In this document: positions 34,151 to 52,289 of the stretch, piece by piece
Numbering within the stretch: position 1 is the stretch's first letter
Layout: each line of letters begins with the position of its first letter
NCBI RefSeq assembly: GCF_014879975.1
Contig: NZ_CP062500.1
Location: forward strand, 1,922,001-1,986,000
DNA from: Vibrio bathopelagicus
GTDB taxonomy: Bacteria; Pseudomonadota; Gammaproteobacteria; Enterobacterales; Vibrionaceae
Length of the DNA: 64,000 nucleotides
Direction of reading: 5' to 3'
The notes under the pieces: generated by a model
What the model was told of the DNA's origin: nothing
Databases searched by the model: none
Seen by the model: the letters and a program-made list of their open reading frames with translations, nothing else
Made by a program: the position numbers and the translations under genes

Positions 34151-34342
34151 TCCGTAATATCAAGTGTAGGTTAGAAAACGCAAAACTATAAACACAAAGA
34201 TGCATATAGAGAGGTTCAGCACGATATCGACAATATAAAAGGTGGAATCACGCTACAACGCACTGTTTTTAGGGCCAATATTGAGAAGGGCCATGCCTTT
34301 CTAGGCTCTGATGAGAGAAGTTTTTGAACCACTTAAGCGACA

Positions 34343-34398
34343 TAGGAATATAGGTATATAGGTAATTAGGTAATTAGGTAATTAGGTAATTAGATAAT
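34343..34398. repeat. 8-bp tandem repeat array (TAGGTAAT, 7 units)
   Basis: Units in order: TAGGAATA, TAGGTATA, TAGGTAAT four times, TAGATAAT. Four are identical and three are one or two changes away. It lies upstream of the GH3 start (about 190 bp) and just after the GST terminator. Confidence 0.85.
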
Positions 34399-34399
34399 T

Positions 34400-34429
34400 A
34401 TGCCCACGCCTTTGATATAAAGTGGGCAT
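34400..34429 (-). terminator. Hairpin after GST gene
   Basis: ATGCCCAC (34400-34407) pairs with GTGGGCAT (34422-34429), loop 14. The minus-strand tail AATTATCTAATT is only weakly T-rich. Confidence 0.55.
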
Positions 34430-35314: not shown

Positions 35315-38300
35315 TTATTCACCTAACGCCGATAAGTCATCACCTTGCATAGGTTCTGGGCTGTTGTTGTCGAAGCTTGAGTTATCATCCATCACATCCA
35401 CACCTATCGCGGTATTATCCTCTTTCGTCCAGTCAGAGCCGCAAGAGCTTTCTTCACCGATCATAGGGCTCGCGTTGTCCGCACTGCTTCCTTGCATCTC
35501 ATAGCTTGGGTCGACTTGAAGAACGCTTGTACACGAAGCTCCTTCAACTTCAACATCCATTGCAGTCATACCTACAAGGTCAAACTCAACGTCACCGACA
35601 AAGGAATCCTCAATAGAGAGTGCGAATGGTTGTGATGTATCACTGATTACATAACCGTCACCACCATCACTTAGGCCTTGAGTTGGCACGACTTCTTCTG
35701 GCAAGCCAATTACATGCAAGTGATCAACGGCTACATTGTCTGAAATGTGCTCAGGGATATCGATATTTACTTCTCCACCAGGAGCGACTGTGTAATCCGG
35801 CTCAGTTGCGCTTTGTGGCTGTGCTTGTTCCTGCTCTACTGACACAGCCTGAACCCCAACTCCAGTTCCAGAATCTTCTTGTTCAGATTGCAATAACACT
35901 TGATGAGACTGCCCATCTGAAGTAGTAAAGTCGACACCAATTTCACCTTCGTAGCTTGGGTCGCCCCAGAAGCTCCACGTATCATTATTGTTATCGATAA
36001 GTGTGCCTCCATCACCTGAATAAGAGACATCAGTAACCGTCGTCGTCTCATCAGCCTCTTCAACTTGCTCTAACAAATCTGATGCTAGAAGCAGTGCATA
36101 GTTTTCATCACCTAGAGCAAAAGGAGAGCTTGAAGTGTGTTGTGAGCCAAGCTCTGTTGTGACTTCGTTGTCCGCCGGATCTTCTACCTCATCTAACGAC
36201 ACAACCGAGACCGTAACAGAGAAATCCCCGCTGTAATTTTCCGGAGGCGTCATAACTAACGCATCCATATTCCAGTTACCAATATCCACAAACTGGCCGG
36301 GCTCTGTAATCGTTACACTATGAGTGCCATCCCCAACAACAAAACCAACTGGGTAACCCGTCATCACAACGCTGGTCATCACTTCAGACGTATCAAGTTG
36401 CTCAATATCAATACCGAAATGACCAGATGTGTCTTCCATAAAGACAAGAGGACCGTCAAAACTCGTGGTAATCACGACACCATCAGCAACCGGACGAATA
36501 TAGACATTCATGTCCATACTGGCTTCCGTCGTTCCATCAGTGACCACGACTTGCAGCCCTGTCGTACCAGCAAAGTCATCGGTCGGCGTAAACGTCCAAG
36601 TACCATTACCATTTTCAACAACGGTTCCTTCAGCCTCTTCGCCTTCAGCAGTAATAACTCGCGAAACTGAAAGTGCGCTGTCTACGTCACCAAATAGCTC
36701 AATCAAATCCGAACTATTGAAGGTTACTGCGCCGTCTTCCTCTACAGCGAGATGCGCATTCCCCGTTTGGAAAGGTTCATCGTCAACGGCGATAATATTG
36801 ACGTTAATCGTACCTTCCGTTGTAAGCTCACCATCACTTACAACATAAGCTACATCGACCGAACCGTTATAGTGTTCAGGTACAACAACTTGGTATAAGC
36901 CATCTTGATTCTGCGTGATACTCGCTTGAGCGGGTGAACGAACACTGATACTTTCCAGCGTAAACTCGGTACTGTCTACATCACTGATTTGCGACAGTAT
37001 AAAGTTAGGATCAATGGTTATCACCTGATCTTCAGAGTCTGTCACTTCCAATGTAGGGGCAATCGGAGCGTCGTTGACCGCATCAACCGTCAACTGTAAC
37101 CCTGATTGAACAATATCCTCTCCGTCTGTTACGTCATAAGAAATATTGATAGCACCAAAGTAATCTGGACTCGGAGTAATAGTGTAACTTCCGTCTCCAT
37201 TATCACGCAGTGACGCATCGCCTTCTAAATCAATGTTGATAGCGGTAAGTTTGTCACCATCAGGGTCCGAAGCATTGGCCAATAGGTCATCTTGCGTAAG
37301 CGTGATGACGCCATCTTCATCGACATGATATTCCAGGTTGCCTTCAATCGTTGGGGCGTCTTGTTGTGGTATTACATCAACAAATACATTCGCCGTATCA
37401 AATGATCCATTACCATCCGTTACTGTGTATTCAAAACTCGCTTCCCCGAAATAGTTAGGTGCAGGCGTAAATATCACCTCACCACTCTCTGTTAACGTCA
37501 CCTCACCTAGCGATTCATCAATTCGTACTTCCGTAATGGTTAGCGTGTCTCCATCGGCATCTGTATCGTTTGCTAATAGATCATCAACACTTAAGACCAA
37601 TTGACCATCTTCAAGCACTTGCATTGGTGAAGTAGTAATTAAACCATCGATGTTGATCAGTTCATCCGTGACACTGATCGCTTGCGATGCTGTATCGTAG
37701 TTTAAGTCTAACGAATGTTCGCTATTCACTTCGGTACCATCGCCCTGAATTGTCACGAGCTGGAGCTCTTCAGACAAAGTTCTTGATACCGTCATGTTTT
37801 GTACTACATAAGTACCGCCACCACCTGTTGTCCCTAATACGAAGTGGTGAACAGGTTGATCTGTTGTGAAGGCGTATGTGTCTTGATACTCACCCGACTC
37901 ACGGTAACCACCTTGAGAGTCAATGACATTACCATCAGAGTCATAAGCTGTAATGATGACTTCCGTTGCATTCGAGTTAGATTCATCAAACCAGCCTCCC
38001 AAACCATCTAGTTGGAAAGTTATCTGGTTAACATCCTCCCCTTCAACCGTCACAATAAGCTCGTCATCGTCCGATAAACCATGTCGACCTTGGTCACCAA
38101 TCCCTGCACCAACTGATGTTCCAGCGCCATTCCACGCTGTTAGGTCACCGTTAGTCACTTCTGTTGTAATGGTGACGTTGTCTTGAGCAAACACTGCAGT
38201 ACTACCATTAACTTGGCCCCAATCGGAAGCCTGTGCAACGCCGTCAAACACCGTTGTACTTGCATCGCTATCAAAGCTACCAACCTTAATATCCATTGTT

Positions 38301-41300
38301 GAAGCTTCAACGTCGGCGACGTCTGGAACATACTGAAGTTCGGTATCCGCCGGGTAAACAACACCAACTTCGAGTTCAGCCCATTCGTTATTGTCATTGA
38401 GGTATTCCAGTGTGCCGTGTTCCGGCGCAGCATCGAGACGAATCGAAGGCTCAGCGGCTGGTAAAGAGGAATCATCTGTCGCAAAAACAGCATCATTGAC
38501 TGACACAACGGTAATATCGGCAGTCGTATTTGCTAATGCTCCTTCGTTATCTGAAATAACCACATCTAACGACAAATTACCGTGGAAATTTTCATTTGGT
38601 GTAAATAGGTAGCTACCATCTTGGTTAAGCTCTAACGTCCCATCATCACCAGAATAAGTGACCGATTCTAACGTCACGTCACCTTCTACATCTGATGAAT
38701 TTTCCAATAACATTTCAGGTGTCAGTTCGAGTACACCGTCTTCGTCAAATTCATAGGAAGTCACACCCGCAACTGGACCGTCATTGACAGCTTCCACCTC
38801 AAGCTCAAGGCTTCCCTCAACAGACTCTACGCCATCGGTCACTTGGTACGTAATCGAAACAACACCGGCGTAATTTTCGTCAGGTGTAATCGTGAACGTA
38901 TCATCACCGTTGTCCATGATTGAGCCATTCTCTACTTGGAAGTCGCTCACAGAAAGTTCATCACCCTCAACATCATCAGCATTCGCGAGTAGCTCTTCTA
39001 AGCTAAGAGTGATTTCGTTGTCTTCTTTGGTAGACGCAGAAACTGTTCCCGACACCGTTGGGCCATCGTTGACTGGGGTCACATTTAATTGAAGATCACC
39101 CGCCACTACATGAGTCCCATCACTAACATCAAAACTCAGCTCGATTTCACCATTGACGTTGGCATCGGGCGTTATTGTGTAAGAACCGTCTTCATTCTCT
39201 ATGACCGAGGCGTTACCGTTAACAACCGTTAAATTGGTAGCAATAAGGTCATCACCATTGACATCAGACGCGTTGGCTAACAGCTCATCTTGCGTGACAG
39301 TAATCGCGACGTCTTCATCCGTTGTGGCTTCAACAGATTCAACATCCGGTGCATATTCATTGGCATCAACGTGAATCGTATGTAGTGTGGTCGCTGAATC
39401 TTGATTTGCTGCTTCTGTCGTTGTTGCAGCAACTTCCAAATCAAATGAATCACTGAACCCATCAGGCAATTCAAGCGCTAACGTTTGGTCCAATACAACG
39501 GAAGGGATAACGATCGGTGTATCATCGGAAACAACTATTTCACCGCTGTATATCCCTTGGTTAACTTCACCTAAATCGATAGAGAAAGAGAAATCATCAT
39601 AGTCTCGGTCACCTCCATTATAGAGGTCCTCGATTCCATAGATCAGTTCGCCTTCTTCGTCCATCGTTGTGCGAGTATGCTCTTGACCATCTTGGTTGAG
39701 GTTGGTGCTAGTTCCGCCATGAAATACCGCGTCACCATTCTGGCTCCGAACGACTGTCTCTGTGCCGTCTTGAGCTATATAGATAAGTTGAGGATCAACT
39801 GAAGACATCGACGCTGGAGAGCCATCATTTTCTCTAAACTCATATTGCCCATCTTGCATGGTACTAAAGTTGTTGTGGCTATTGCCGTTTGGAATGACAA
39901 ATAGGTTGAAGCTTTGACCTGCTTCTAGGTCGAAAGAGAAGGAAGACTGACCGGGTATTAGATCCCCTCCAGAGCCTTGCTGTGAAGCATTAACGTAAAC
40001 CAAATTTACATCTGAAATGGTGCCATCTTCTTCAACAAGGTAGTAGCCAGCCGAGTTTTGGAAACCAGCGCCCTCACCTTCAAATGTCACCGTTACCGTA
40101 GTATCTGCAAAACTCGTCAAACCGTTCGACTGGTCATTAATAACGGCATCATTGTCATAACGAAGAACACTGCCTTGTGGCGAACCACCTAAGGTCACAC
40201 TTAACGTTTCTGACAGATCTTGGTCGACTAGTTCGGCATCAATATTCAGCTCAACGACATTGGCGTCATCGCGAATTGAGCCACCGTCTTCGATTACGGT
40301 ACCATCACCTTCGGTAATTTGAAGATTGGCAGAATCCGCAACTGCATCAACCGTGATCTCTATTGATGCTGAACTACTTTCGATCCCATCCGTGATAGAG
40401 AAGTCCAAATTCAGTTCACCACTGAAGTTCTCGCTAGGCGTAAACACATGAGTTCCGCTAGCAGGGTCACTAACTAACGTCCCGTCGTTGCCACTGTAAG
40501 AAACCGATTCAACCGCTAAGTCATCGCCATCAACGTCTGACGCAGCTTCAATTAACTGGACATCTGTCAGTGTAATAGTGCCATCTTCATCCATTTGATA
40601 AGCGAGGTTTTCAACTACTGGCCCATCATTTACCGCAGCGACATTAAAGCTCACCGTCGAACTGGTGGTGGAAGTGTCGCCATTGGAAGCTTCAATGGAG
40701 GTCGCAGACACTTCTAAGTCCACATCTCCGTTGAAATTCTCGGCGGGTGTGAACTGTAAGTCTCCATGAGCCCAATCTTTGACATCAACAGAGTCATCAT
40801 CACCACTTGCTGTAAAGGTATTCGTACCATCCGTTACGGTTGCACCTTCTGGAATGGCATCAATGATAATGGACTGCATACTCTCAGAGCCATCTAAGTC
40901 CGTGAGCACTGCACTAATATCAATCGCAATATCTTGATCTTCAGTCGCAACTTCGGTGACTTGAATTCTATCTAATACACCCCCGACACTATCATCACCA
41001 GGAGCGTTAAATTCGAGACGTGGGTTATCCGTTGAAGCCGTAAGTTCATAATTGTATGTGTGCCAGCCGACACTGTCGTGGCTGATCGTGTCGATTAACT
41101 CGCCTTCAAAGTAAACTTGAATCGCAGAGTTATCGCCTTCCGCATTCTGTCTTGCGGAATAATCGAAGCTCAGAGATACCGTCTCACCTTGTTGAATGGT
41201 CAAATTCTGGTAGATATTCGATTCATCACCAGGATGGGCCTCTAACTCTATTACGTTGCCTCGGTCGCTATCACTGATGCCGGTGTAAACTTGTTCACCA

Positions 41301-43192
41301 CGAATTTCCAAATAACCATTCGCGTTGTCTGTACTCCAGTTGGCTAAAATATTAGGGTCATCGAAGTCGGTAGTGACAGGCTGACCTATCGTGACAGTAA
41401 CATCTGGCGCATCAGCCACAGCGTCTACCGTAAACTGAACAGAAGATGTGGTTGTGGCCGTGTCCCCATTGGACTCTTCAATAGAAGTCGCTGAAACACT
41501 TAAACTAATATCACCACTGAAATTTTCAGGTGGGGTAAACTGTAACTCAGAGTGTTGCCATCCATTTACGTCAATTGAATTATCGTTGGAAGTCGCTGTA
41601 AATGATTGCTCCCCATCCGTTAATGTTGCGCCTTCTGGAATTGAGTCAACAACGATTGACTGCATGCTCTCTGAACCATCCAGATCAGTAAGAGCAGCAC
41701 TAATATCGATACTAATATCGTTGTCTTCAGTCGCTAGTTCTGTGACTTGTATGTTATCCAACACACCACCAACACTATCGTCCCCAGGCGCGTTGAATTC
41801 TAAACGAGGATTGTCAGACGACGCGGTTAGCTCGTAGTTATATGTATGCCACCCCACGCTGTCTTGACTGATCGTGTCGATTAACTCGCCTTCAAAGTAA
41901 ACTTGAATAGCTGAATTATCACCTTCGGCGTTCAAACGAGCCGAGTAATCAAAGCTAAGCTGGACGGTTTCGCCCTCTTGGATCTGCAAGTCTTGGTAAA
42001 TATTAGACTCATCACCAGGGTGCGCTTCCAACTCAATTACGTTACCTCGCTCACTATCCGTAATACCTGTGTAAACTTGTTCACCACGAATTTCGATATG
42101 GTCATTCGCGTTGTCTGTGCTCCACTCGGAAAGCAAATTAGGGTCATCAAAATCGGTGATTGTAGGATCGCCCACCGTCACAGTGACTTCAGGAGCATCA
42201 GCTTCAGCATCAATGACGAACTGGATAGAAGAGTGTGTCGTTGCGGTATCACTGTTGGATGTTTCGACAGAGGTAGCTGAAAGATCTAGCGACACTTCAC
42301 CGCTGAAATTTTCCACTGTAGTAAACTGTAAACCGTCATGTTGCCAATTGGTAATATCAGCTGACGATTCACTTGAACTCGAGGTAAAAGTGTTGGTTCC
42401 ATCGGTTAGCGTTGCGCCTTCCGGAATATCACTCACCACAATTGACTGCATCGCTTCAGAGCCATCCATATCAACCAATGCCGCACTGATATCAATAGAG
42501 ACGGCGTGATCTTCAGTGATTATTTCATCCACGACGACATTAAGTTCTGGTGCATCAGCCTCTGCTTCAACACTCACATCAAAACTTAATGTATCGGTAG
42601 TCGTATCTGAATGTTCCAATTCGTCGGAATAAATGGAATGTTCCGGCTCAACTTGCACACCAAATGATGTGGAATCTACTTTACTGTCGCTACTTGAATC
42701 ATTGTTTGAATTTTGTGAGGACGACGCTGACTTAGCACTGTCATTTGAGGCTGAGCTCTGTTGTGAGTTTTGTTGTTGACTCGAACTCGCAGATGGTGAT
42801 TGTTCAGCTGAATTTCCGCCTACATCTTGTGTCTCTTGAGCACTACTTGAAAGAGGAGATAGCCCATCATCGGCTTCCGGCTCGTCCTCAAGCACTTTAG
42901 ATTGAGCGCTACCTTGTTGTTCACTCGGTTGATCTTCTTCGACGGCTTGAACTTGAGATTCGCCTTCTTCTTGAGAAGCACCCTGCTCTTGCCCGCTTTC
43001 TTCTTGCTGTACTTCCTCTTCAGCCGATAAAGGTGCGACCGAATCAGTACCAGTTGCTACCGTGTTTGCGGCAGAGGATTGCTGATTATTTTGACTGTTC
43101 GCATTCGATGAAGCAGGAGATTTGTCATCAGTAACAACCTGTTCTACTGCATCATTTAGATTATTGTTATTAGTATTTCCACCAACTGGCAT
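35315..43192 (-). CDS. Giant cadherin/VCBS-type repeat adhesin, probable type I secretion substrate
   Basis: 2625 residues, strongly acidic. Residues 1-190 are low-complexity (Ser, Gln, Asn, Glu) with no hydrophobic Sec signal. Next come beta-sandwich repeats (IPEGATLTDG ... ENFSG motifs), including two near-identical blocks of about 260 residues carrying lectin-like jelly-roll segments (VGWHTYNYELTAS). A DUF4114-like domain follows near 1060-1210 (YGIEDLYNGGDRDYDDF). Then tandem cadherin-like repeats (DEDG...TPSENFSG, DVDGD Ca2+ motifs) continue to about 2400. The tail is short, acidic and has Cys residues; no GGxGxD RTX nonapeptides were found. A clean AAGGAG ribosome site precedes the start. 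Divergent from a type I secretion operon, so surface display through that system is inferred, for adhesion or biofilm. Confidence 0.85.
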   Translation of the reverse strand: MPVGGNTNNNNLNDAVEQVVTDDKSPASSNANSQNNQQSSAANTVATGTDSVAPLSAEEEVQQEESGQEQGASQEEGESQVQAVEEDQPSEQQGSAQSKVLEDEPEADDGLSPLSSSAQETQDVGGNSAEQSPSASSSQQQNSQQSSASNDSAKSASSSQNSNNDSSSDSKVDSTSFGVQVEPEHSIYSDELEHSDTTTDTLSFDVSVEAEADAPELNVVVDEIITEDHAVSIDISAALVDMDGSEAMQSIVVSDIPEGATLTDGTNTFTSSSSESSADITNWQHDGLQFTTVENFSGEVSLDLSATSVETSNSDTATTHSSIQFVIDAEADAPEVTVTVGDPTITDFDDPNLLSEWSTDNANDHIEIRGEQVYTGITDSERGNVIELEAHPGDESNIYQDLQIQEGETVQLSFDYSARLNAEGDNSAIQVYFEGELIDTISQDSVGWHTYNYELTASSDNPRLEFNAPGDDSVGGVLDNIQVTELATEDNDISIDISAALTDLDGSESMQSIVVDSIPEGATLTDGEQSFTATSNDNSIDVNGWQHSELQFTPPENFSGDISLSVSATSIEESNGDTATTTSSVQFTVDAVADAPDVTVTIGQPVTTDFDDPNILANWSTDNANGYLEIRGEQVYTGISDSDRGNVIELEAHPGDESNIYQNLTIQQGETVSLSFDYSARQNAEGDNSAIQVYFEGELIDTISHDSVGWHTYNYELTASTDNPRLEFNAPGDDSVGGVLDRIQVTEVATEDQDIAIDISAVLTDLDGSESMQSIIIDAIPEGATVTDGTNTFTASGDDDSVDVKDWAHGDLQFTPAENFNGDVDLEVSATSIEASNGDTSTTSSTVSFNVAAVNDGPVVENLAYQMDEDGTITLTDVQLIEAASDVDGDDLAVESVSYSGNDGTLVSDPASGTHVFTPSENFSGELNLDFSITDGIESSSASIEITVDAVADSANLQITEGDGTVIEDGGSIRDDANVVELNIDAELVDQDLSETLSVTLGGSPQGSVLRYDNDAVINDQSNGLTSFADTTVTVTFEGEGAGFQNSAGYYLVEEDGTISDVNLVYVNASQQGSGGDLIPGQSSFSFDLEAGQSFNLFVIPNGNSHNNFSTMQDGQYEFRENDGSPASMSSVDPQLIYIAQDGTETVVRSQNGDAVFHGGTSTNLNQDGQEHTRTTMDEEGELIYGIEDLYNGGDRDYDDFSFSIDLGEVNQGIYSGEIVVSDDTPIVIPSVVLDQTLALELPDGFSDSFDLEVAATTTEAANQDSATTLHTIHVDANEYAPDVESVEATTDEDVAITVTQDELLANASDVNGDDLIATNLTVVNGNASVIENEDGSYTITPDANVNGEIELSFDVSDGTHVVAGDLQLNVTPVNDGPTVSGTVSASTKEDNEITLSLEELLANADDVEGDELSVSDFQVENGSIMDNGDDTFTITPDENYAGVVSITYQVTDGVESVEGSLELEVEAVNDGPVAGVTSYEFDEDGVLELTPEMLLENSSDVEGDVTLESVTYSGDDGTLELNQDGSYLFTPNENFHGNLSLDVVISDNEGALANTTADITVVSVNDAVFATDDSSLPAAEPSIRLDAAPEHGTLEYLNDNNEWAELEVGVVYPADTELQYVPDVADVEASTMDIKVGSFDSDASTTVFDGVAQASDWGQVNGSTAVFAQDNVTITTEVTNGDLTAWNGAGTSVGAGIGDQGRHGLSDDDELIVTVEGEDVNQITFQLDGLGGWFDESNSNATEVIITAYDSDGNVIDSQGGYRESGEYQDTYAFTTDQPVHHFVLGTTGGGGTYVVQNMTVSRTLSEELQLVTIQGDGTEVNSEHSLDLNYDTASQAISVTDELINIDGLITTSPMQVLEDGQLVLSVDDLLANDTDADGDTLTITEVRIDESLGEVTLTESGEVIFTPAPNYFGEASFEYTVTDGNGSFDTANVFVDVIPQQDAPTIEGNLEYHVDEDGVITLTQDDLLANASDPDGDKLTAINIDLEGDASLRDNGDGSYTITPSPDYFGAINISYDVTDGEDIVQSGLQLTVDAVNDAPIAPTLEVTDSEDQVITIDPNFILSQISDVDSTEFTLESISVRSPAQASITQNQDGLYQVVVPEHYNGSVDVAYVVSDGELTTEGTINVNIIAVDDEPFQTGNAHLAVEEDGAVTFNSSDLIELFGDVDSALSVSRVITAEGEEAEGTVVENGNGTWTFTPTDDFAGTTGLQVVVTDGTTEASMDMNVYIRPVADGVVITTSFDGPLVFMEDTSGHFGIDIEQLDTSEVMTSVVMTGYPVGFVVGDGTHSVTITEPGQFVDIGNWNMDALVMTPPENYSGDFSVTVSVVSLDEVEDPADNEVTTELGSQHTSSSPFALGDENYALLLASDLLEQVEEADETTTVTDVSYSGDGGTLIDNNNDTWSFWGDPSYEGEIGVDFTTSDGQSHQVLLQSEQEDSGTGVGVQAVSVEQEQAQPQSATEPDYTVAPGGEVNIDIPEHISDNVAVDHLHVIGLPEEVVPTQGLSDGGDGYVISDTSQPFALSIEDSFVGDVEFDLVGMTAMDVEVEGASCTSVLQVDPSYEMQGSSADNASPMIGEESSCGSDWTKEDNTAIGVDVMDDNSSFDNNSPEPMQGDDLSALGE
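40620..42190 (-). repeat. Two ~786-bp direct repeats inside adhesin gene
   Basis: The segments about 41405-42190 and 40620-41404 encode two copies of a roughly 262-residue block. Identical stretches of about 40 bp, such as the one beginning CTGATCGTGTCGATTAACTC, recur 786 bp apart (near 41082 and 41868). Protein identity is high over the whole block. Confidence 0.8.
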
Positions 43193-43561
43193 ATTCCGCT
43201 CCTTGTCATTAACTTAAACATGCACAAACTACAATGCTACCTGTAGCATAGAATACAAAGCTCATATGACAAGCTTAGAAAAAGCAATAATATTTAAAAT
43301 CTGATCGCTCTCTTACTTGAAACATTTAAGTATTAAAATTAACAAGTTGCGTCCTATTATATGCAATAGGTTTTTATGCGTCTCAACCAAAACTAAAACA
43401 ACATAGATAAAGTTGAGGTTACGAAAGCCATTTAGGTAGATTCAGTTCTATACGGAGTATTAGGAAGTAACCCGTATTCTGATGAATTGACCAAGTGAGC
43501 GGAATTGCTCCGCTACTTGTGTACATAAAATACGTCAAGGCAAAAGCAAGGACATTGGCTT
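43193..43561. other. Divergent promoter region between adhesin and secretion operon
   Basis: 369 bp without a gene. The adhesin side has a strong AAGGAG ribosome site; the operon side has AAGGA 11 bases before ATG 43562. The middle is AT-rich and should hold both promoters. I see no clear operator palindrome or riboswitch. Confidence 0.6.
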
Positions 43562-44887
43562 ATGAGTGACTTAGATAAAATCATCGAGCGATCAATAAAC
43601 AAAGTGCACGATGATCAGACAGACAGAAACATCACCCCAAGTAAAGTCACCACACATACCGTCTTCATTGTGGCGGTGTTTCTTGGCTTTTGTGCCGTTG
43701 TTTGGTCATCACAGGCAACCATTGATATAACCGTTTCGACTCGTGGTGAGGTTTTATTAGAGTCAGACGTTGAAAAGGTACAGCACCTCGAGGGAGGAAT
43801 ACTCAACGAACTCTTCGTATCCCCGGGAGATCTGGTTTTCAAAGGTCAGAAGATTGCCTCTCTAACCTCTAAAGATCGTGTATCGGAACTCAACTCCACG
43901 CAATATGAGATTGCCGAACTCCAGATCGAGCAACAGAAATACTCCTCTCTTATCAATCAAACGACCCCCGATTTTTCACGATATGGTCAATACCCAAACT
44001 TAGTAAAAACTCAGACCCTATCTTGGGAAGAAGAGAATAATAAGAACCAATCGAACGATGATCTGTTTGTTCACGATATCAAACATAAACGAAGCTTGAT
44101 TCAGTCGATGAATAACCGCGTCCAGTCTTCCAACAAGCAGCTAAAACTCATCAGCAAGCAACTCTCCATTAAGAACCAGTTGTATAAAGAAGAAATGGCC
44201 TCTTATGTTGACGTTATAAATATGGAAATTCAGAAAATGAACATGGTTCGTGAGATAGAAAACCTTGATGAATCTATCTTGAATGAGCGTTTTCAGATGC
44301 AGCGCCTTGAAAAACAGCTCGGCGATCACCGCAAAGCCCGAAACTCAGAATATTATGAGAAGCTCACGGAAGTGAATAAAACGCTCAAAAACAAAGAGAC
44401 GCAACTCCCGACCATTACCGACAAAGTAGAAAGGTTGATCGTCTTCTCTCCTGTTGATGGAACAGTCGACAAAATCAACTTCAACTACTTATCTGCCGTG
44501 ATACCACCTGGCGACAGCATTGCTGATATCACCCCCCTAAATAATGAAATGCACGCAGAGGTTAAAATTCCAAGGAAAGACGTTGGTTTCATTGAAAAAG
44601 GGCAAGAAGTTAAGCTCAAATTCGACACCTATAACTTTGCGAAGTACGGCGTCATTTCAGGTCAAATAGCCTCAATTTCTAGAAGCTCTTACGAAGAACA
44701 AGAGCAAGAATATTACTTAGCAAAAGTTAAAATCGCTGAAAACTACTTACTGAGAAATAACGTGAAGTTCCATATTGCACCTTACATGGAGTTCACAGCT
44801 GATATCAAAACCGGGAACCGAAAAATTATTGATTATGCTCTCAAGCCAATCATGACAGCGCTCGACGAATCTTTTAATGAGAGGTAA
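43562..44887 (+). CDS. HlyD-family membrane fusion protein (type I secretion)
   Basis: 441 residues: a short cytosolic N-terminus, one membrane segment (about 33-51), then the adaptor pattern with half-lipoyl motif VEKVQHLEGGILNELFVSPGD, a long alpha-helical hairpin (about 110-290), the second half-lipoyl FSPVDGTVDKI and a beta-barrel domain. It would bridge the inner-membrane ABC pair to the TolC-like channel. First gene of the operon; the next gene starts six bases after its stop. Family assignment is firm. Confidence 0.92.
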   Translation: MSDLDKIIERSINKVHDDQTDRNITPSKVTTHTVFIVAVFLGFCAVVWSSQATIDITVSTRGEVLLESDVEKVQHLEGGILNELFVSPGDLVFKGQKIASLTSKDRVSELNSTQYEIAELQIEQQKYSSLINQTTPDFSRYGQYPNLVKTQTLSWEEENNKNQSNDDLFVHDIKHKRSLIQSMNNRVQSSNKQLKLISKQLSIKNQLYKEEMASYVDVINMEIQKMNMVREIENLDESILNERFQMQRLEKQLGDHRKARNSEYYEKLTEVNKTLKNKETQLPTITDKVERLIVFSPVDGTVDKINFNYLSAVIPPGDSIADITPLNNEMHAEVKIPRKDVGFIEKGQEVKLKFDTYNFAKYGVISGQIASISRSSYEEQEQEYYLAKVKIAENYLLRNNVKFHIAPYMEFTADIKTGNRKIIDYALKPIMTALDESFNER

Positions 44888-44893
44888 TGGGAT

Positions 44894-47113
44894 ATGAAAA
44901 ACAAATTACAGTACAACAGCAAAGTCAGTCATATCTTATTTATCTTGATCATAGGAATCATGTTACTGAATGGGGCTTACACTCTGCATAGTATTACTTC
45001 TGAAGATCAGCAGAGCCACACTCGTACTCTATTGGTGAGCAAATCCAATGAGATCCTAAATGACATCAATTTACTCAATGCAACATTAGGGACCTGTTCA
45101 AGCAACAACGAGACATGTTCTTCTGCGGCAATACAGCTTTTAGTCGAAGAGTTGAACTTAGAAATAGCTCGCTTTCAAAGTATTGTTTCACAAGAAAAAT
45201 CTCTGGCCTCACTGACGGGTACGCTTGGCTTCGATTTATTGCAGTTACACATCAAAGAGTACAAGCAAACACGGGATACAAATAAGCTGGCAACCTCAAT
45301 TAAAGAGGCTTCAAACACCAGTATTGCGATCATTAATAGCCTGTTGGCAAACTACAGCGATTCCAACACAAGAGAAGACACGCAAACGATCTACAAAGTG
45401 GTTGCTATCAACGCCTTACTGCTTTGTGTGTTTATGCTTTTTTATTTTAGAAACGCTCGGTTAATCAAGCATATAGAAGTAGAAAGACAGCGTGCTCACG
45501 CTACGTTCAAAACGATATCAAACAACCTTAAAACGATCGATCAAGAGAAGGTTAAAGAACGCATATCAAACATCACGACCACCAGCATCGAAAAGAACAT
45601 TTACGCAAAACTGCTGACGAGCTACGAACAATTAGAAGGTCAAAAGTCCCAAACAGATTTATACCAAAGGCTCTACAACCTTCTGGGCTACGAGATTCGA
45701 GGTATCACCAACACCATCCAAGGAGGGGTTAAACTATTGGTTAAAGACAGTGATGAAAACGGTGCTTTACTTGCTAAAGAAATTATCTCGGCAACGCGTA
45801 CGCTTGAAAACCTTGCGGACAACTTTAATCGAATCTCAAATATCGACTCATCAAACACTGAAAAAACCATCAATTTCTACAACTTAGTGAGTGAACTTAT
45901 TGTTTTGGGTGGCACAAAATCTAAGCAACACTCAAAGCACATTGAGTGCTTCGTTGAGAACACCATCCCTCAGCAAATGCATGGCAATCAAACCGGACTG
46001 TTTTGGATCTTACTGCTACAAATTTCAAATCGTATATCAGCCTCTCCATACTCAAATGTCTTACTTCATGTTGGGTGCTCAGGCTCTCAACAAGTCGACA
46101 AACTCACCATAACGTTCACCTTATATTTCTATGATGAAGATTATGAAACTGTCGATCATGTTGAAGGCCTTGATTGGGACAGCGCAAGTAACAAAGATAT
46201 TACCAATACGGAACTATCCAACAACCTGTTAAACGGTATTAAAAATTACCAAGCAATGCTACACACGATCGAAAGAGCGGAGAAGGTAGCGATTTCGTTT
46301 GATGTCCACACTTCACACTACACACCATTAAGTAATCGCCTAGCAGGCAAAACTATCCTGTTGTGCGGAACAGCAAACATCCACTTGGATATTTTGCAAA
46401 AAATATTGATAAGCGAAGGCGCTAAGGTTGTCATCGCTAATACCGCCAACGACATTTTTATGATGATGAAAGGTCTCAATGCAAATGACGGTATTTTCTT
46501 AACCGATCATATTAAGGGCATTACGCTCGATTCTTTCTGTAAAACACTAAAAGCACGTCTATCCGCAAGAAACATTAAGTTGATGATGTCGATGTCTAAC
46601 TCTGTCGATATTGACGACATCTACAATCACGTTGACTACATTTTTTATCATCCGTTTACACCAACAGATTTCATTGAGCACATCGTTAAAACACTTGAAA
46701 GTGTCGGCCAAGAAGAAGAGAAACTCGCGAGTTCATTTCTGATCGTTGAAGACGACCGAGTTCAGCAAATTATCCTTAATAAAATCCTTAGTGGGTTCGA
46801 CTTCCAGTGTCAGGGTGTTGATGATGGTGAAAAAGCAGTTTCTCTTATCAAAGAGCAAGATTTCGACATCATATTCATGGACTGCATCATGCCTAATATG
46901 GGGGGGATAGATGCGACACTACTCATCCGACAGTACGAAAAAGAGAATGGACTTCCGCCAACAACCATCATTGGTGCAACGGCCTTAAAGAGTAATAAAG
47001 AGCACAAACGCTGTATCGATGCAGGAATGGATTACGTCATCAGTAAGCCGTATAAAAATGAAGAAATTTACTCGGTGATTAAGAAGTACATGGCAATAAG
47101 GAAGGTTGGCTAA
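44894..47113 (+). CDS. Membrane hybrid histidine-kinase-like protein, probable pseudokinase with active receiver
   Basis: 739 residues. Membrane segments at about 11-31 and 166-186 frame a 130-residue periplasmic sensor with two Cys. The cytosolic dimerization helix reads LGYEIRGITNTIQGGV, aligning with the HEIRTPLNGI H-box of hybrid kinases but with Tyr266 in place of the phospho-acceptor His. The ATPase region lacks recognisable N, G1 and G2 boxes. A first receiver-like domain (about 480-600) lacks the phospho-acceptor Asp. The last domain (about 615-735) has LIVEDD, the acceptor Asp663 in IIFMDCIMPNMGG, and Lys in ISKPY, so it looks functional. No output domain. Its place inside a secretion operon, between adaptor and channel genes (TAATG overlap with the latter), suggests it controls the exporter or adhesin. 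Confidence 0.85.
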   Translation: MKNKLQYNSKVSHILFILIIGIMLLNGAYTLHSITSEDQQSHTRTLLVSKSNEILNDINLLNATLGTCSSNNETCSSAAIQLLVEELNLEIARFQSIVSQEKSLASLTGTLGFDLLQLHIKEYKQTRDTNKLATSIKEASNTSIAIINSLLANYSDSNTREDTQTIYKVVAINALLLCVFMLFYFRNARLIKHIEVERQRAHATFKTISNNLKTIDQEKVKERISNITTTSIEKNIYAKLLTSYEQLEGQKSQTDLYQRLYNLLGYEIRGITNTIQGGVKLLVKDSDENGALLAKEIISATRTLENLADNFNRISNIDSSNTEKTINFYNLVSELIVLGGTKSKQHSKHIECFVENTIPQQMHGNQTGLFWILLLQISNRISASPYSNVLLHVGCSGSQQVDKLTITFTLYFYDEDYETVDHVEGLDWDSASNKDITNTELSNNLLNGIKNYQAMLHTIERAEKVAISFDVHTSHYTPLSNRLAGKTILLCGTANIHLDILQKILISEGAKVVIANTANDIFMMMKGLNANDGIFLTDHIKGITLDSFCKTLKARLSARNIKLMMSMSNSVDIDDIYNHVDYIFYHPFTPTDFIEHIVKTLESVGQEEEKLASSFLIVEDDRVQQIILNKILSGFDFQCQGVDDGEKAVSLIKEQDFDIIFMDCIMPNMGGIDATLLIRQYEKENGLPPTTIIGATALKSNKEHKRCIDAGMDYVISKPYKNEEIYSVIKKYMAIRKVG

Positions 47114-48561
47114 TGAAGACACTTGAACGCCGTAGCTCCCCTGTTGTTCTATCGATATCTAACTCAGGATCAACATCGCCTTTAAGTTTGGCAATAAAGC
47201 GCGTCTTACTCCCTCTCGCCTGTGGTTTTGGCTCTTTCTACAGTGTCTCCGGGCATACAAGTGAACTGTCTGCGTTAATCAACCATACAATAGATAGTAA
47301 CTACCAGGTCATTAGCGCTCGATATGATGTCAATTCATCGCGCTACGACAAAGACATCAGCAGCGCTTTTTTCTACCCATCAATCAATGCCAGTGCTAAC
47401 ACAACGTGGAACGAGTCTGATGTTGACTCTACAACGCCATCAAATAACGAATACAACAGCAACGGGTATCGAATATCCATTACTCAAACTATTTTAGACC
47501 TATCACGACTCGACACGTACAAAGAGTCAGAGATCGACCTTAAAATCAGCCGCCTTCAACATGACAAAGTGGTCAACGACATTGTCTTTGAAGTTGTCGA
47601 TAACTACTTCTCATATCTAAAATATCACGCACAGAAAAAGGCAACAGACGCACAACTCAAATCCTCTCAGTCTCGGCTTAAACAGATAACTAGAAACCAT
47701 GAACTGGGTAATTTGCCAAAAACAGATGTGTACGAAACACAAGCTCAGAAAGGCACGACTAGTAAACAAATCACTGATATCCGTAAGAAAATAAGTCAGG
47801 CCCTGAATCAACTTCGTTCGACCACACAAACTCGTATTTCGCCGTCATACGATATGGCACTGACTAATCAATATAGTGAGATTGATGAATCAGAAAGAGC
47901 TGCACTCGAAAAAAAACTGATTAGCGGTAACTTTGAAATTGCGATTGCGCGCTCTAACTTAGATAAGTCGAAACGCACTCTCAGTAAATCAAAATCCGAG
48001 TTCTACCCCACATTATCTGCCAGTGCGAATTATGAATATTCAGACAGCAATCTCGACCATTCAATACAAGACACATCGACCTACGCGCTAACCTTAGATG
48101 TACCCATTTTCGAAGGCGGTTCGGACTACTACGAATACCGAAAGAGCAAAAACACAATCCAACAACTGTCATCTCGCTATGACCAATCGCTCAACGACAC
48201 TCGTGTGGAACTGGACGACACAATATTAAACATCAACGCCAATATTGAATCACTGGATATCTTAAAGTCCGTAATTCAGTCGAATTACTTAGTGTATACA
48301 GGCAATAAAAAGGCTTATCGGCTAGGAACAAAAACCCTAACAGACTTATTAAACTCTGAATCTGACCTCTATGATTCGATCCGAGATTACCATTCCAACC
48401 AATACGACTACATCATCAACACCACCAAGCTGTACTCTCTATTTGGTGCAATAGACCTCAAAGCAATTGAAGCAATTTCCAATAGCATGGTGCCGATAAA
48501 CGAAACCTTCGACATGGCCGCGCTAGAACAATTTGCCTCAGGAGAGATGCCGAATGAATAA
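47113..48561 (+). CDS. TolC-family outer-membrane channel
   Basis: 482 residues with an N-terminal signal-like hydrophobic stretch (about 28-46, LAIKRVLLPLACGFGSFYSVSG). The body has the TolC/LapE pattern of two homologous halves of long helices with SSFYPSINASANTTW-like and SEFYPTLSASANYEYSD strands and the closing RLGTKTLTDLLNSESDLYD motif. It would form the outer-membrane exit of the type I system encoded around it. Start overlaps the preceding stop by one base; its own stop overlaps the next gene by eight bases, so translation is coupled. Confidence 0.92.
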   Translation: MKTLERRSSPVVLSISNSGSTSPLSLAIKRVLLPLACGFGSFYSVSGHTSELSALINHTIDSNYQVISARYDVNSSRYDKDISSAFFYPSINASANTTWNESDVDSTTPSNNEYNSNGYRISITQTILDLSRLDTYKESEIDLKISRLQHDKVVNDIVFEVVDNYFSYLKYHAQKKATDAQLKSSQSRLKQITRNHELGNLPKTDVYETQAQKGTTSKQITDIRKKISQALNQLRSTTQTRISPSYDMALTNQYSEIDESERAALEKKLISGNFEIAIARSNLDKSKRTLSKSKSEFYPTLSASANYEYSDSNLDHSIQDTSTYALTLDVPIFEGGSDYYEYRKSKNTIQQLSSRYDQSLNDTRVELDDTILNINANIESLDILKSVIQSNYLVYTGNKKAYRLGTKTLTDLLNSESDLYDSIRDYHSNQYDYIINTTKLYSLFGAIDLKAIEAISNSMVPINETFDMAALEQFASGEMPNE

Positions 48562-50134
48562 GCTCAATTACCTCCCTAAACTCAGCATTACAGACAGTTG
48601 CTTTCTTGTTGCATCGAGTACGATGACCACGTTGCTAGGTTTGGTTCTGCCGTTCTCAATTTTGATCATATTTGACAGAATCATCCCTAATAACTCGAGC
48701 TCTTCGCTGTATTTTATTTTCGTTATTATCCTTGTTGCGATTGCTCTGGACTACAGAATCAAAAACATCGAAGAATCCATGGTCTCTCGCATTGGTAACC
48801 GATTTGAAAACACCGTCACCAATCAACTATTCCATGCTATTTGTCACTCCAAAGGTTCACAATTCAAACGATTGGAAACTGGTGAATACCTGGAGCGCTT
48901 AACCACGATCATGGGGCTTAAGTCTTTCTACAGTGGCGAATTGATTAGCGCATTTATTAATGCATTCACGTGTCTTATCACTTTAATCGTCATCGCGATT
49001 ATTAACCCACCAGCCGGCGCTATTTTGGCCCTAGCCTCTGCTTTTTTGTTGGCTGCATCGCTTCATTTATCGCGCAAAAAAATCGCACTAATGAAAATGA
49101 AATCAGACTCCGAAGGTGCAACCAATTCCAATATCATTAATATCATTTCGTTCCCACTCGACATCAAGAGTCGCTCTATGGAATTTCGCCTTGAGAACCT
49201 TATGGACGCGATGGTCAAAGAACGTGAATACCACACCAGTGAATTCGAAAAACAAGAGTCAAAATTCAACCTGACACTGACCCTTATCCAGCAACTGGCG
49301 ATTGTCCTTACCGTCGTCACCAGTGCAATTGCAGTGATAAACCTAGATATTAGCCAAGGTGTCATGGCCGCGATCATACTGCTGACCAACCGCTTCTTTG
49401 CACCTTATCAACAAACCATGAGAGCGATCAGTCAGTGGGAAGTAAACAAAAACTATATCGCTCGTCTAAATGAAATCTTAGAGTTAGAGTCAGAGCAAGA
49501 TGCCCATGCTGTAGATGAACCACCACCGAAAACACTCAATTATTCCGGCCGCAGTGACTACCAATTTTTATCCAATAAAATTTCAGTACTATCGGGGCAA
49601 TCAGGATCTGGTAAGTCATCAATTTTAAGAGCCTTTACTCACACGCAACATGACAATGAGTATCAAGTCTCAACCGACCAATTGTCGGCAGAACAATACT
49701 TAGCATCTAACACTGAAAACAATGTCATCTTAATAGACAAAAGCAGTACATTTGTTGACGGTACAATCATCGACAACATCACCTGTTTTCGCCCTCAACT
49801 ACACAAAGCCGCCTATTCTCTTTGCGAATCTCTTGGTATTAAAAGTGATATCGATGACCTTAAACTTGGCTTTTATACCGATATCACAACCACTGGCGTA
49901 AAACCGTTCTCTCGAAAGGTGAGCTTCGCTTTATTGATCGTCAGGGCACTATTAAGTAATAAGAAAATCCTATTAATTGATTATCTGGATCTGTCATACG
50001 ATGAAGCGTTTTGCTCCAACTTATTGTCATGCCTTCGCCCGAGAGTGAACTCTTATTTGTTTATTATCGCGAGCAATAAAATCAAACATGTCGACATGAA
50101 CCTTCAATATGTTAATGCCAATGAGGTCGCTTAA
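48554..50134 (+). CDS. ABC exporter subunit 1 with degenerate nucleotide-binding domain
   Basis: 526 residues from ATG 48554, chosen because GGAGAG lies eight bases upstream and it overlaps the channel stop. Transmembrane domain about 15-300, nucleotide-binding domain about 320-526. Walker A is intact (SGQSGSGKSSIL, near 345), but the LSGGQ signature is not recognisable (VKPFSRKVSFALLIVRALL stands there), Walker B reads LLIDYLD with Tyr in place of the catalytic Glu, and the switch His is missing (FIIASNK). It most likely binds but does not hydrolyse ATP and pairs with the next gene product as a heterodimer. Confidence 0.88.
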   Translation: MNKLNYLPKLSITDSCFLVASSTMTTLLGLVLPFSILIIFDRIIPNNSSSSLYFIFVIILVAIALDYRIKNIEESMVSRIGNRFENTVTNQLFHAICHSKGSQFKRLETGEYLERLTTIMGLKSFYSGELISAFINAFTCLITLIVIAIINPPAGAILALASAFLLAASLHLSRKKIALMKMKSDSEGATNSNIINIISFPLDIKSRSMEFRLENLMDAMVKEREYHTSEFEKQESKFNLTLTLIQQLAIVLTVVTSAIAVINLDISQGVMAAIILLTNRFFAPYQQTMRAISQWEVNKNYIARLNEILELESEQDAHAVDEPPPKTLNYSGRSDYQFLSNKISVLSGQSGSGKSSILRAFTHTQHDNEYQVSTDQLSAEQYLASNTENNVILIDKSSTFVDGTIIDNITCFRPQLHKAAYSLCESLGIKSDIDDLKLGFYTDITTTGVKPFSRKVSFALLIVRALLSNKKILLIDYLDLSYDEAFCSNLLSCLRPRVNSYLFIIASNKIKHVDMNLQYVNANEVA

Positions 50135-50135
50135 T

Positions 50136-52289
50136 ATGGATACATTAATTGCCTTTGATGAGATTCAAGAACGTCTAGTGCACTTTCGAGAAGGTCATTT
50201 ATCAACGCGCTATGCAGAAACACCCATTTTACTCGGCTTAAGCTACGCTTTAGTCTCTTTGCAGTGGGAAGGAACCGCTGACATGCTTTCCGATGCCTTT
50301 GTCAGCCACAGCCAACCGTCAACCTCTTTCGATAAAACGCTCTCTCGGCTCGGATACCAATGCATCAACAGTCGAATCACACATACAGACCAATTGTGTA
50401 CGATCAATAGCCCAGCGTTTATTACCATTGATAAACAACACTATATTTTACTGAACTACGAAGGCGGGGTTCTTTTCTTATACGATTACGAGAACGACCT
50501 GCCAATCGAGAGCCCAGTATCGGGAAAGCTCAAAGCGTATGTGTGCAGTATTTCGAGTTACTCTCGAATATTTAGAGAGCCATCACCAGAGTCACAAGAC
50601 AAAAGGAACTGGGTCAAACACATTTTTTACCAGTACAGCAGGGAGTTTAAAAGTCTTGCCTTGTTGAGCCTGTTTAACACTCTCTTTGGTACGATACAGC
50701 CATTCTTTATTATGGGGGTGTACACGTTTGCATTAACGGCAGAATCGGTATCAACCCTATACTGGCTCGCGTCTGGTGCTATCGTAATCGCCATCTTAGA
50801 GCACTTTTTAAAACGTCAAAGGATGAATATCCTCAACACTTCTGGGCAAGAACTCGCGTGCTATATTTCATACCATATTATTTCAAAGCTTCTATGGTTA
50901 CCCTACTCTCTAACGTCAACAGCCACGACGTCGTCTCAACTTGCAAGGCTTAAAGATATTGACCAGTTTAGACAACTAGTGACCGCGGAATCGAGCCTAA
51001 GCTATTTCGACCTGCCATTCATCTTCATATTCCTAGTCGCGATTTCCATCATGTCAGGCACTGCAGCAATCACGGTATTAGTCGGTATCGCCGTTATGCT
51101 CGTATTCTGTATGTACTCTCGATATGTCTACCTTCAAGCAACATCAAAAAGTTCTCGAGCTAATGCCATGGTTTCTTATCAATGGAATGAGCTACTGATG
51201 AACGTGGGTTCGATTCAAAAGCTGCCACTGCTATCCGTGGTTAAATCTCGCTTCAACTCAGCGCTCACGCAGCGCCTAAAAGATTCATACCAAGTGTCTG
51301 TCACTAACGCAAAAATACAGCAGCTGGGGACCAGCTTTATTCAGATTATCGGTACGACAACCATCGTTGTTGCTGTGAGTGCGGTGATGTCTGGTGACGC
51401 GAACCCTGGTTCAATGTTGGCTATCATCATCTTAGTTTGGAAGGCATTAACGCCGATCATGGGGATCTATAACTCATTAGCTAAGGTCGACACCATCAAA
51501 GCGTCTTCCGCTCAAATTAACGCCCTGATGTCGTTAGATGATGATAAAACCCGAATGGAAAAAAGCCCGCCTATCCATGAGTTTAGTGGCAACCTGAATA
51601 TCAAAGCCTTGTCACATCGCCACCAAGGCTGTAGCCGTGGACTAACGAATCTATCGTTCAATATCCAAGCTGGTGAAAAAATTTCTATTTGTGCGCCTTC
51701 AGGCTCCGGAAAGACCACACTTATGAATATTCTGGCTGGGATTGAAGTACGTTTTCAAGGGCAGTTGCTGTATGACGGTTACAATGTCACGCAATTCAAT
51801 AACTTTAGGTTCAGAAGCAGTATTTGCCATATCCCCTTCGACATGCACATTTACCATAGCTCCGTGCACGCAAATTACACGGTATACAACGGGTATGTAC
51901 CTGAAGACTTTATTGATGAGATGTTGAATTTCTTAGATTTGATACCTTACCTACCACACGGAAAAAATACCGTTTTGTCTGCGGAGTTCTTGTCCACACT
52001 CCCTGATGGCGTATACAGGAAGCTCATACTTGCGATAGGCATCGGATATTGCAATAAGAAAGTGATCATCATGGATGAGCCGTTTGTAGGCTCTGAACAA
52101 GAGAACAATCGCTATCTAACTCTCCTATTCAAAGAGTATCTTGCCAATAGCACCGTTATATTCACTACTTCAAGTAAAGCGATGGTCGCGATCACGAATC
52201 AGTGCCTTTTACTTGAGAAAGATGGCTCTCAGAAGTTCTTTGGGACCCCAGACAAAGTATTACAAGCGGCACCAACCATGTTGACGTAG
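50136..52289 (+). CDS. ABC exporter subunit 2 with C39-like domain
   Basis: 717 residues from ATG 50136 (GAGGT ribosome site eight bases upstream, one base after the previous stop). Residues 1-150 resemble a C39 peptidase-like domain with no catalytic Cys, as in substrate-docking domains of adhesin and RTX exporters. The transmembrane domain spans about 165-430. The nucleotide-binding domain has Walker A CAPSGSGKTTLM near 520 and Walker B VIIMDEPF near 643, but the signature is LSTLPDG and the switch His is replaced (IFTTSSK). Partner of subunit 1; together they should form the inner-membrane pump for the divergent adhesin. A terminator follows. Confidence 0.9.
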   Translation: MDTLIAFDEIQERLVHFREGHLSTRYAETPILLGLSYALVSLQWEGTADMLSDAFVSHSQPSTSFDKTLSRLGYQCINSRITHTDQLCTINSPAFITIDKQHYILLNYEGGVLFLYDYENDLPIESPVSGKLKAYVCSISSYSRIFREPSPESQDKRNWVKHIFYQYSREFKSLALLSLFNTLFGTIQPFFIMGVYTFALTAESVSTLYWLASGAIVIAILEHFLKRQRMNILNTSGQELACYISYHIISKLLWLPYSLTSTATTSSQLARLKDIDQFRQLVTAESSLSYFDLPFIFIFLVAISIMSGTAAITVLVGIAVMLVFCMYSRYVYLQATSKSSRANAMVSYQWNELLMNVGSIQKLPLLSVVKSRFNSALTQRLKDSYQVSVTNAKIQQLGTSFIQIIGTTTIVVAVSAVMSGDANPGSMLAIIILVWKALTPIMGIYNSLAKVDTIKASSAQINALMSLDDDKTRMEKSPPIHEFSGNLNIKALSHRHQGCSRGLTNLSFNIQAGEKISICAPSGSGKTTLMNILAGIEVRFQGQLLYDGYNVTQFNNFRFRSSICHIPFDMHIYHSSVHANYTVYNGYVPEDFIDEMLNFLDLIPYLPHGKNTVLSAEFLSTLPDGVYRKLILAIGIGYCNKKVIIMDEPFVGSEQENNRYLTLLFKEYLANSTVIFTTSSKAMVAITNQCLLLEKDGSQKFFGTPDKVLQAAPTMLT

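Follow-up and report, generated by a model that had tools for sequence, protein, structure and literature searches.

A stretch of 64,000 nucleotides from Vibrio bathopelagicus (NCBI contig NZ_CP062500.1, positions 1,922,001 to 1,986,000), hereafter called the window and numbered from its first letter, encodes at 35315..52289 a giant repeat protein and, divergent from it, an operon of export genes that includes a gene for a kinase-like membrane protein. The system formed by these genes is real, and it is widespread in the Vibrionaceae and in some of their neighbors. By its composition, it appears to be a type I secretion system of a new form, with a mechanism that we infer from the parts. Specifically, we propose that two unlike ABC proteins form a heterodimeric exporter, that a phosphorelay receiver is a subunit of the machine, and that phosphate delivered via an HPt protein switches export of the giant protein. 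We assign this reading a probability of about one half. It draws, at the level of sequence, on the composition and conservation of the operon, the loss of kinase motifs, the intact receiver, and the association with HPt proteins.

Gene layout and conservation

The open reading frame (ORF) listing places the giant gene, which specifies 2625 amino acids (aa), on the minus strand (35315..43192). Separated from it by 369 bp, and divergent from it, is a tight plus-strand operon with the order hlyD–kinase-like–tolC–abc1–abc2. The products are a 441-aa HlyD-type periplasmic adaptor (43562..44887), a 739-aa predicted membrane pseudo-histidine kinase with receivers (44894..47113), a 482-aa TolC-like outer-membrane channel (47113..48561), a half-exporter with a degenerate nucleotide-binding domain, ABC1 (48554..50134), and a second half-exporter with an N-terminal extension, ABC2 (50109..52289). 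ABC1 is taken to start at the ATG at 48554; the ORF listing begins at a TTG at 48533. A gap of 6 nt separates the HlyD and kinase genes, and the remaining genes overlap by 1 nt (kinase/TolC), 8 nt (TolC/ABC1), and 26 nt (ABC1/ABC2). An earlier sequence-only reading of the window had described a giant gene divergent from a tightly coupled operon of this kind; the ORFs bear out that description, and the family scans agree with it.

The first match outside the genome was the Vibrio coralliilyticus plasmid pSNUTY2, which has an identical gene layout. Relatives of the kinase-like protein are present in 36 of 148 Vibrio genomes (E 1e-30 or better), and a separate search with abc1 returned the same 36. 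Similarly, in an order-level draw of 295 genomes, the kinase-like and abc1 profiles identified the same 9 genomes (co-occurrence cut-offs: E 1e-30 or 1e-40 for the kinase-like protein and E 1e-60 for abc1). At the family level, kinase-like matches occur in 47 of 197 genomes and in 5 of 13 genera, counting two genes broken by stops (G158, G195) and one match to the receiver only (G227). Beyond Vibrio, searches of the class (369 genomes) and the phylum (398 genomes) at E 1e-30, with the two best candidates per genome scored, returned only receiver-length matches (E 2e-35 to 4e-31).

Gene order is likewise conserved. According to profile and BLAST searches, hlyD, the kinase-like gene, tolC, abc1, and abc2 lie on one strand, in that order, with a relative of the giant gene divergent upstream, in 78 of 81 loci; every locus was located via its kinase-like gene, and broken genes were scored as present. 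The 81 loci consist of 35 from Vibrio (L032–L066), a collection of 43 (L067–L109), one from Photobacterium sanctipauli (L110), the plasmid, and one from another family (G428). They are not independent cases because the two large collections share genomes. Two of the three exceptions lie at contig ends: L087 has no abc2, and the fragment of the giant gene in L096 falls below the cut-off. The third, P. sanctipauli (L110, 3840-20624), carries a divergent version of the system with the order abc1–abc2–hlyD–kinase–giant, all on one strand, and no tolC was found at that locus. The association of the genes thus persists there despite the rearranged order. Moreover, the pairwise distances of the five operon proteins correlate across 54 loci (r 0.975-0.994). 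The sequence-only reading had regarded both the pair of dissimilar ABC subunits and the membrane pseudokinase-receiver as regular components of the system. The recurrence of the gene order and divergent giant gene in Vibrionaceae and other genera, together with the matching abc1 search, supports that view: the components are regular and co-inherited.

Among loci with genomic context, the window operon is closest to those of Aliivibrio and of one other Vibrio (L032), with kinase-like proteins 63-64% identical; the other Vibrio copies are only 31-36% identical to that of the window. A protein search in which 7994 candidates were scored also returned at least one nearer relative, a 99% identical kinase-like protein on an 8.4-kb contig. 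Because the operon is closest to Aliivibrio and distant from most Vibrio copies, the sequences suggest that it has been transferred as a unit. The plasmid pSNUTY2 (L001), which carries the operon, is typed as conjugative, and the giant gene there is split into three ORFs. In L035, L037, L038, L063, and L066, at least one gene of the operon or the giant gene is also in pieces. Such split genes in several Vibrio copies imply either that the system is decaying in some lineages or that the assemblies contain errors.

A predicted pseudokinase with an intact receiver

The kinase-like protein is predicted to be a pseudokinase whose last receiver is intact. Alignment, modeling, and membrane segments recognized by eye and by helix prediction give the architecture TM1 (a transmembrane segment), helical periplasmic domain, TM2, DHp-like stem, CA-like domain without G boxes, pseudo-REC1, and REC2. 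Response_reg alone passes its Pfam cut-off on this protein, and HATPase_c has no match at E 0.1. The H-box position, at which phospho-accepting histidine is expected, is tyrosine (Tyr266; codon 45689..45691) in 80 of 80 sequences, 69 of them distinct, a set that excludes members shorter than 85% of the query, covered at 70% or less, or identical at 26% or less. The P. sanctipauli protein, which falls outside that set and was inspected separately, has tyrosine too. The G1 box, DxGxG, appears in the CA-like region of 0 of the 69 distinct sequences. As a control, the canonical hybrid kinase encoded beside locus L085 has both the H-box histidine and the G1 box.

REC1 is degenerate: on inspection of the alignment, the phosphorylation pattern is absent. 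REC2 (46733..47098; PF00072, 78.6 bits) is a canonical receiver, with E619/D620/D621, D663, T696, and K718. D620 and D621 are kept in 80 of 80 sequences and D663 in 78 (two gaps); position 696 is threonine in 77 and serine in two (one gap), and K718 is present in 77 (three gaps). The pseudokinase-receiver of the sequence-only reading is therefore upheld and also refined, in that the canonical receiver is the second of two and the first is degenerate. Conservation follows the same division. The share of columns conserved at 97% or more is 43% in REC2 and 35% in the DHp-like stem, versus 9% in REC1, 8% in the CA-like domain, and 0-4% in the linker and in the membrane and periplasmic parts. Within the periplasmic part, cysteines C68 and C75 are each kept in 79 of the 80 sequences.

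An AlphaFold2 model (mean pLDDT 77.8, pTM 0.46), whose domain order is usable and whose relative domain arrangement is not, shows a helical membrane/periplasmic part, a long helix, a DHp-like stem, a CA-like domain, and two receivers. The top Foldseek match in the PDB is ShkA (6qrj; 16% identity, TM 0.28/0.42), and further matches include receiver domains, PleD, and kinase regions of RetS and GacS. A VIA-align search with the 739-aa model matched receiver domains only. ShkA has the arrangement DHp-CA-REC1-REC2 and is an active kinase controlled by cyclic di-GMP. The window protein shares that arrangement, but its kinase motifs are lost and it is membrane bound. We make no claim for a cyclic di-GMP site of the ShkA kind in the REC1–REC2 linker; the linker is unconserved.

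A further comparison is with DivL, a pseudo-histidine kinase with tyrosine in place of the phospho-accepting histidine, in which the DHp surface reads a phosphorylated receiver or regulator (PMC4211667). The kinase-like protein resembles DivL in this tyrosine. In contrast, DivL keeps its N, G1, F, and G2 boxes and has PAS domains, whereas here G1 is lost, receivers are fused to the protein, and the gene belongs to a secretion operon (PMC4211667). The combination that marks a DivL-type protein, tyrosine plus the other kinase boxes, is thus absent: the tyrosine is present and G1 is not. Public records name the kinase-like protein ‘response regulator’, ‘ATP-binding response regulator’, or ‘CheY-like chemotaxis protein’.

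The export machine and its candidate substrate

A complete type I set, consisting of ABC exporter, HlyD-type adaptor, and TolC-type channel, is encoded together. The adaptor matches the type I HlyD model TIGR01843 with 305.7 bits (cut-off 208.65). The channel is well over the cut-off for the OEP family PF02321 (192.6 bits) and under it for TIGR01844 (193.9; cut-off 225.15). On both ABC proteins, ABC_membrane and ABC_tran score above cut-off; the best family models for both are type I exporters, with scores far under their cut-offs, and the solved chains nearest to ABC2 are HlyB-like.

We aligned 75 ABC1 and 76 ABC2 sequences; counts at individual sites rest on 12 of each, and the controls were four transporters from the window genome that had been chosen because they have SGGQ. 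ABC1 keeps Walker A and the transmembrane domain, and its signatures are of an FSRxV type (FSRKV in the window; PNK in L110). Its catalytic glutamate is replaced in 12 of 12 members, by aspartate in 10, tyrosine in the window, and asparagine in L110, and the H-switch histidine is absent from 11 (asparagine in the window), L110 alone retaining it. ABC2 keeps Walker A and the catalytic glutamate in 12 of 12, and in the window Walker B as well; its signatures are LPxGV-like (LPDGV in the window; LSSSH in L084), and no member has the H-switch histidine (serine in the window). Because of these losses, any heterodimer would contain one catalytic glutamate and no canonical signature. Two neighboring ABC ORFs of the same genome, of MARTX type by eye and used as controls chosen for SGGQ, both have LSGGQ, DEA, and the H-switch histidine.

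A gene row in Marinagarivorans algicola (L117:1078-14267) combines genes for two ABC exporters, whose signatures are noncanonical by eye, with those for an HlyD-like protein, two hybrid kinases with HPt, and a REC-HATPase protein. It is possibly an independent link of a two-ABC pump with signaling.

The giant protein is the candidate substrate of the operon’s pump, and it may act as an adhesin. Family scans reveal 11 tandem-95 stretches (tandem-95/cadherin-like repeats), two DUF642 stretches, and a DUF4114 domain. The motif GGxGxD has 0 matches in the protein, which accordingly shows no RTX nonapeptide (GGxGxDxUx); among 15 relatives scanned (three being broken-gene fragments), 13 have 0 matches, L074 has 2, and L075 has 1. 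The N-terminus (MPVGGNTNNNN...) has no hydrophobic Sec-type signal by eye. On both counts, this agrees with the earlier description of a giant protein with neither Sec signal nor RTX repeats. Its C-terminal tail (35318..35440, minus strand) is conserved: variants of DWTxxDNxxxGVDVMDDxxSxD occur in all 14 aligned C-termini, including that of P. sanctipauli L110, in an alignment restricted to giants with DW[TM] near the end and excluding the three broken-gene fragments. This tail is a candidate type I secretion signal.

HPt proteins and neighboring kinases

Receivers take phosphate from HPt proteins, and an HPt-family ORF is present in 61 of the 81 loci, in many relatives in the divergent gap between the giant gene and hlyD. 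In Aliivibrio sifiae, the short ORF in that gap scores 27.9 bits as an Hpt domain (cut-off 24.6). Outside the main Vibrio clade, namely in Aliivibrio, Psychromonas, Photobacterium, Shewanella, Thaumasiovibrio, and G428, the HPt-family ORFs carry an HxLKG-type histidine, and examples from each of these, with the histidine, exceed the Pfam Hpt cut-off. By script count, 20 of the 61 ORFs have the histidine; among these, L064 and L104 stand for a second, downstream HPt, and the L073 member lies beside a hybrid kinase and scores 16.1 bits, under the cut-off. Loci of the V. comitans type have a His-less HPt upstream plus an intact HPt downstream. Among 16 members of the operon HPt family, 9 match Pfam Hpt at E 1; 9 have the histidine and 7 lack it, and five His-bearing members are individually above the Pfam cut-off. 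The His-less and His-bearing groups are homologous (hhalign 98.7%, E 3.9e-16, 108 columns). A His-less member is predicted (pLDDT 91) to form a helical bundle resembling HptB and a Shewanella HPt (TM 0.76-0.81), with Foldseek E-values that are not significant (best 0.1).

HPt genes also exist away from the hlyD–abc2 genes. An HPt-family ORF of ~110 aa occurs in 12 of 12 operon-bearing genomes searched. Separate copies, fetched for nine genomes, have the histidine in nine of nine, and five of the nine, including that of the window genome, adjoin a response regulator of about 510-530 aa. In the window genome, this stand-alone HPt with intact histidine lies on chromosome 2 (L177:6757-8669), and the adjoining response regulator of ~530 aa has an unknown C-terminal part. 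Separate HPt genes are present in 31 of 31 operon-bearing Vibrio genomes versus 16 of ~102 others (Fisher p 8e-19, uncorrected for shared ancestry). The 133 genomes of this draw were taken as the members of the 148-genome Vibrio draw with handles up to G132, and the count excludes two weak matches (G096, G112; E ~1e-14, inside longer proteins).

In 13 of the 41 named loci with room for one, a hybrid kinase whose H-box is intact is encoded no more than 3 kb downstream of abc2. The five that we scanned (L068, L073, L085, L086, L100) have HisKA, HATPase, and receivers, and none of the five has an Hpt match. A single cluster holds the hybrid kinase, the intact HPt, and the receiver in Psychromonas and likewise in Thaumasiovibrio.

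Other genes are found near these loci. After abc2 in Psychromonas marina (L068:10742-15493) lie a hybrid kinase, a haem-NO-binding (HNOB) protein, and an ORF that matches the receiver part by BLAST; the HNOB protein is a hint of nitric oxide input. A sigma-70 family factor of 289-298 aa adjoins the HPt gene in L179 (6972-7865) and L182 (4848-5714). In G046 and G130, judging from two stretches each, the sigma-70/HPt site may lie past the distal end of the giant gene, and the gene would in that case span 16-25 kb. Finally, small proteins of 112-138 aa with an MYxYV...DVPEEExEIREI-like pattern (L085:17452-17823; L182:3928-4827; L185:8482-9356) recur after abc2 and near HPt/sigma loci; the three scanned have no Pfam match.

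Proposed mechanism and alternatives

The notion is that the giant surface protein would be exported by a dedicated type I system, built from a heterodimeric ABC exporter whose nucleotide sites are degenerate, together with an HlyD adaptor and a TolC channel, and that the membrane pseudo-histidine kinase would be a physical part of this export machine. The pseudokinase would be unable to make phosphate. Its C-terminal receiver would instead be charged by a separate kinase through phosphotransfer from a small HPt, supplied by the operon in several relatives and probably by chromosome 2 in the window genome. The phosphorylated receiver would dock either with the pump or with the DHp-like stem, which is conserved. 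Its charge would alter the pseudokinase and, through the pseudokinase, the pump, such that export of the giant is turned on or off. The strictest form of this proposal, that the phosphorelay ends on a subunit of the type I machine and that phosphorylation of the dead kinase’s receiver directly switches export, is one we put forward tentatively and with some doubt. The heterodimeric pump, with both ATP sites degenerate, may need the receiver switch to fire.

Several observations weigh against gating by phosphate. Co-occurrence of the genes and the distance correlations are equally expected from joint inheritance. In the main Vibrio clade, the histidine of the operon HPt family is replaced by lysine, asparagine, serine, or tyrosine. 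Twenty of the 81 loci, including the closest Vibrio relative, L032, have no HPt-family ORF, and the window has none either: its divergent gap (43193..43561) contains no open frame of at least 35 aa in the operon sense and so no HPt-family gene. Where the separate HPt adjoins a response regulator of its own, as in five of the nine fetched, it may act in that pathway rather than with the pump; in addition, 16 Vibrio genomes possess it with no operon. In one of the 31 operon-bearing genomes, G008, it is represented only by a partial frame of 81 aa.

The His-less or absent operon HPts across much of Vibrio also favor an account in which the pseudokinase is a scaffold or a sensor of pump flux; its receiver would signal outward, and export would not be gated by phosphorylation. 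BceAB-type transporters with sensor kinases would be the nearest analogy. Strict co-occurrence with the pump and loss of the pseudokinase’s catalytic parts fit this account, and the near-invariant periplasmic cysteines suggest periplasmic contact. For a pure scaffold, however, it would be odd to keep the phosphorylation site of the receiver while the CA-like domain and REC1 diverge, and we judge the account unlikely. We are similarly skeptical that the pseudokinase acts on transcription in the manner of RetS, modulating another kinase or draining a relay that controls the locus or biofilm genes, with no contact with the pump. Foldseek does return RetS and GacS kinase regions, and hybrid kinases, the HPt–response regulator pair, and sometimes a sigma-70 family factor are encoded near some loci or HPt genes. 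Yet at the cut-offs used, neither the 148-genome nor the 295-genome draw contains the gene in the absence of abc1, and in 78 of 81 loci it is flanked by the genes for the adaptor and the channel. If it regulated other genes, one would expect to see it by itself in some cases.

The composition of the pump itself can be construed differently. ABC2 alone could be the pump, with ABC1 a regulatory or assembly factor and no heterodimer formed, given that 12 of 12 ABC1 members are without the canonical signature and the catalytic glutamate, and 11 of 12 without the H-switch histidine. We consider this quite improbable: Walker A and a transmembrane domain are still present in ABC1, its gene goes together with that of ABC2 in the operon, and ABC2 too is without a canonical signature. 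The idea that the kinase-like gene is a passenger, inserted by chance into an ordinary type I operon, has virtually no likelihood, as 78 of 81 loci share the order across several genera and abc1 was never found without the kinase-like gene in 148 Vibrio and 295 order-level genomes. The sequence-only reading had named a kinase-like gene confined to this one place as the finding that would count against it; that case does not arise, because the components are regular and co-inherited.

Relation to known systems

The LapA/LapBCE system exports a giant repeat adhesin by type I secretion and has LapD and LapG as partners; a V. cholerae paper (PMC6890996) reportedly concerns LapA-type large adhesins. 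The window locus is similar in that a giant repeat protein is encoded beside type I genes. It differs from LapA/LapBCE in its phospho-receiver within the operon, its lack of RTX repeats, the absence of any LapA retention-module match on the giant in NCBIfam at E 0.01, and the absence of an adjacent LapD/LapG-like ORF by eye in 30000-58000, where neighbors were unscanned and beyond which no lapD/lapG search of the remaining genome was made.

Two ABC proteins alone are not new, because the MARTX type I system uses two different ones, RtxB and RtxE; the premise of the sequence-only reading that type I systems are all homodimeric is thus wrong (PMC3034196). MARTX and the system described here share two different ABC proteins, an HlyD-type adaptor, an operon divergent from a giant-exoprotein gene, and occurrence in Vibrio (PMC3034196). 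In MARTX, however, TolC is encoded outside the locus, the substrate is an RTX toxin, and the available part of the source mentions no signaling protein, whereas here tolC is in the operon and RTX repeats are absent (PMC3034196). The MARTX order is rtxBDE, versus hlyD–kinase–tolC–abc1–abc2 here, and we rejected orthology with RtxBDE because the gene order differs.

The exporters TmrAB and TM287/288 likewise pair unlike half-transporters with asymmetric nucleotide-binding domains (PMC8277102). Unlike them, the present pair has noncanonical signatures in both halves, the catalytic glutamate in ABC2 only, and no H-switch histidine in either half, except in ABC1 of L110. The genome paper of A. salmonicida reports three type I systems, with no such detail in the part available (PMC2627896). 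Judged by title and the start of the abstract, none of the full-text matches listed describes such a system, a scope outside of which fall subscription papers and preprints. The V. parahaemolyticus mfpABC biofilm locus was considered and, going by its description, dropped: cpsQ-mfpABC has three mfp genes (PMC5552913).

Surroundings in the window

Directly downstream of the operon, on the same strand, a subtilase-like ORF (by eye; 52766-54508) contains an in-frame 24-bp repeat that encodes the acidic motif DDGNGYID. It seems to lie outside the system because no relative was labeled in the 20-kb stretches of other loci. On the far side of the giant gene, at 34342-34400, approximately seven 8-bp TAGGTAAT-like repeats occur between ORFs that resemble, by eye, a glycosidase and a glutathione transferase.

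Implications

To our knowledge, control over the large adhesins that type I systems export acts at expression, through two-component systems and cyclic di-GMP, or at release, through LapG/LapD. A pseudokinase with a working receiver among the genes of a pump suggests that cell signaling may switch protein export directly. If so, a signaling subunit in the export operon would constitute a third level of control, the pump itself, and a pseudokinase and HPt would be brought into secretion biology. A natural ABC exporter with two degenerate nucleotide sites would also be useful for asking how such pumps are energized. The system is common, with 36 of 148 Vibrio genomes bearing it, even though its kinase-like protein is recorded under generic names.

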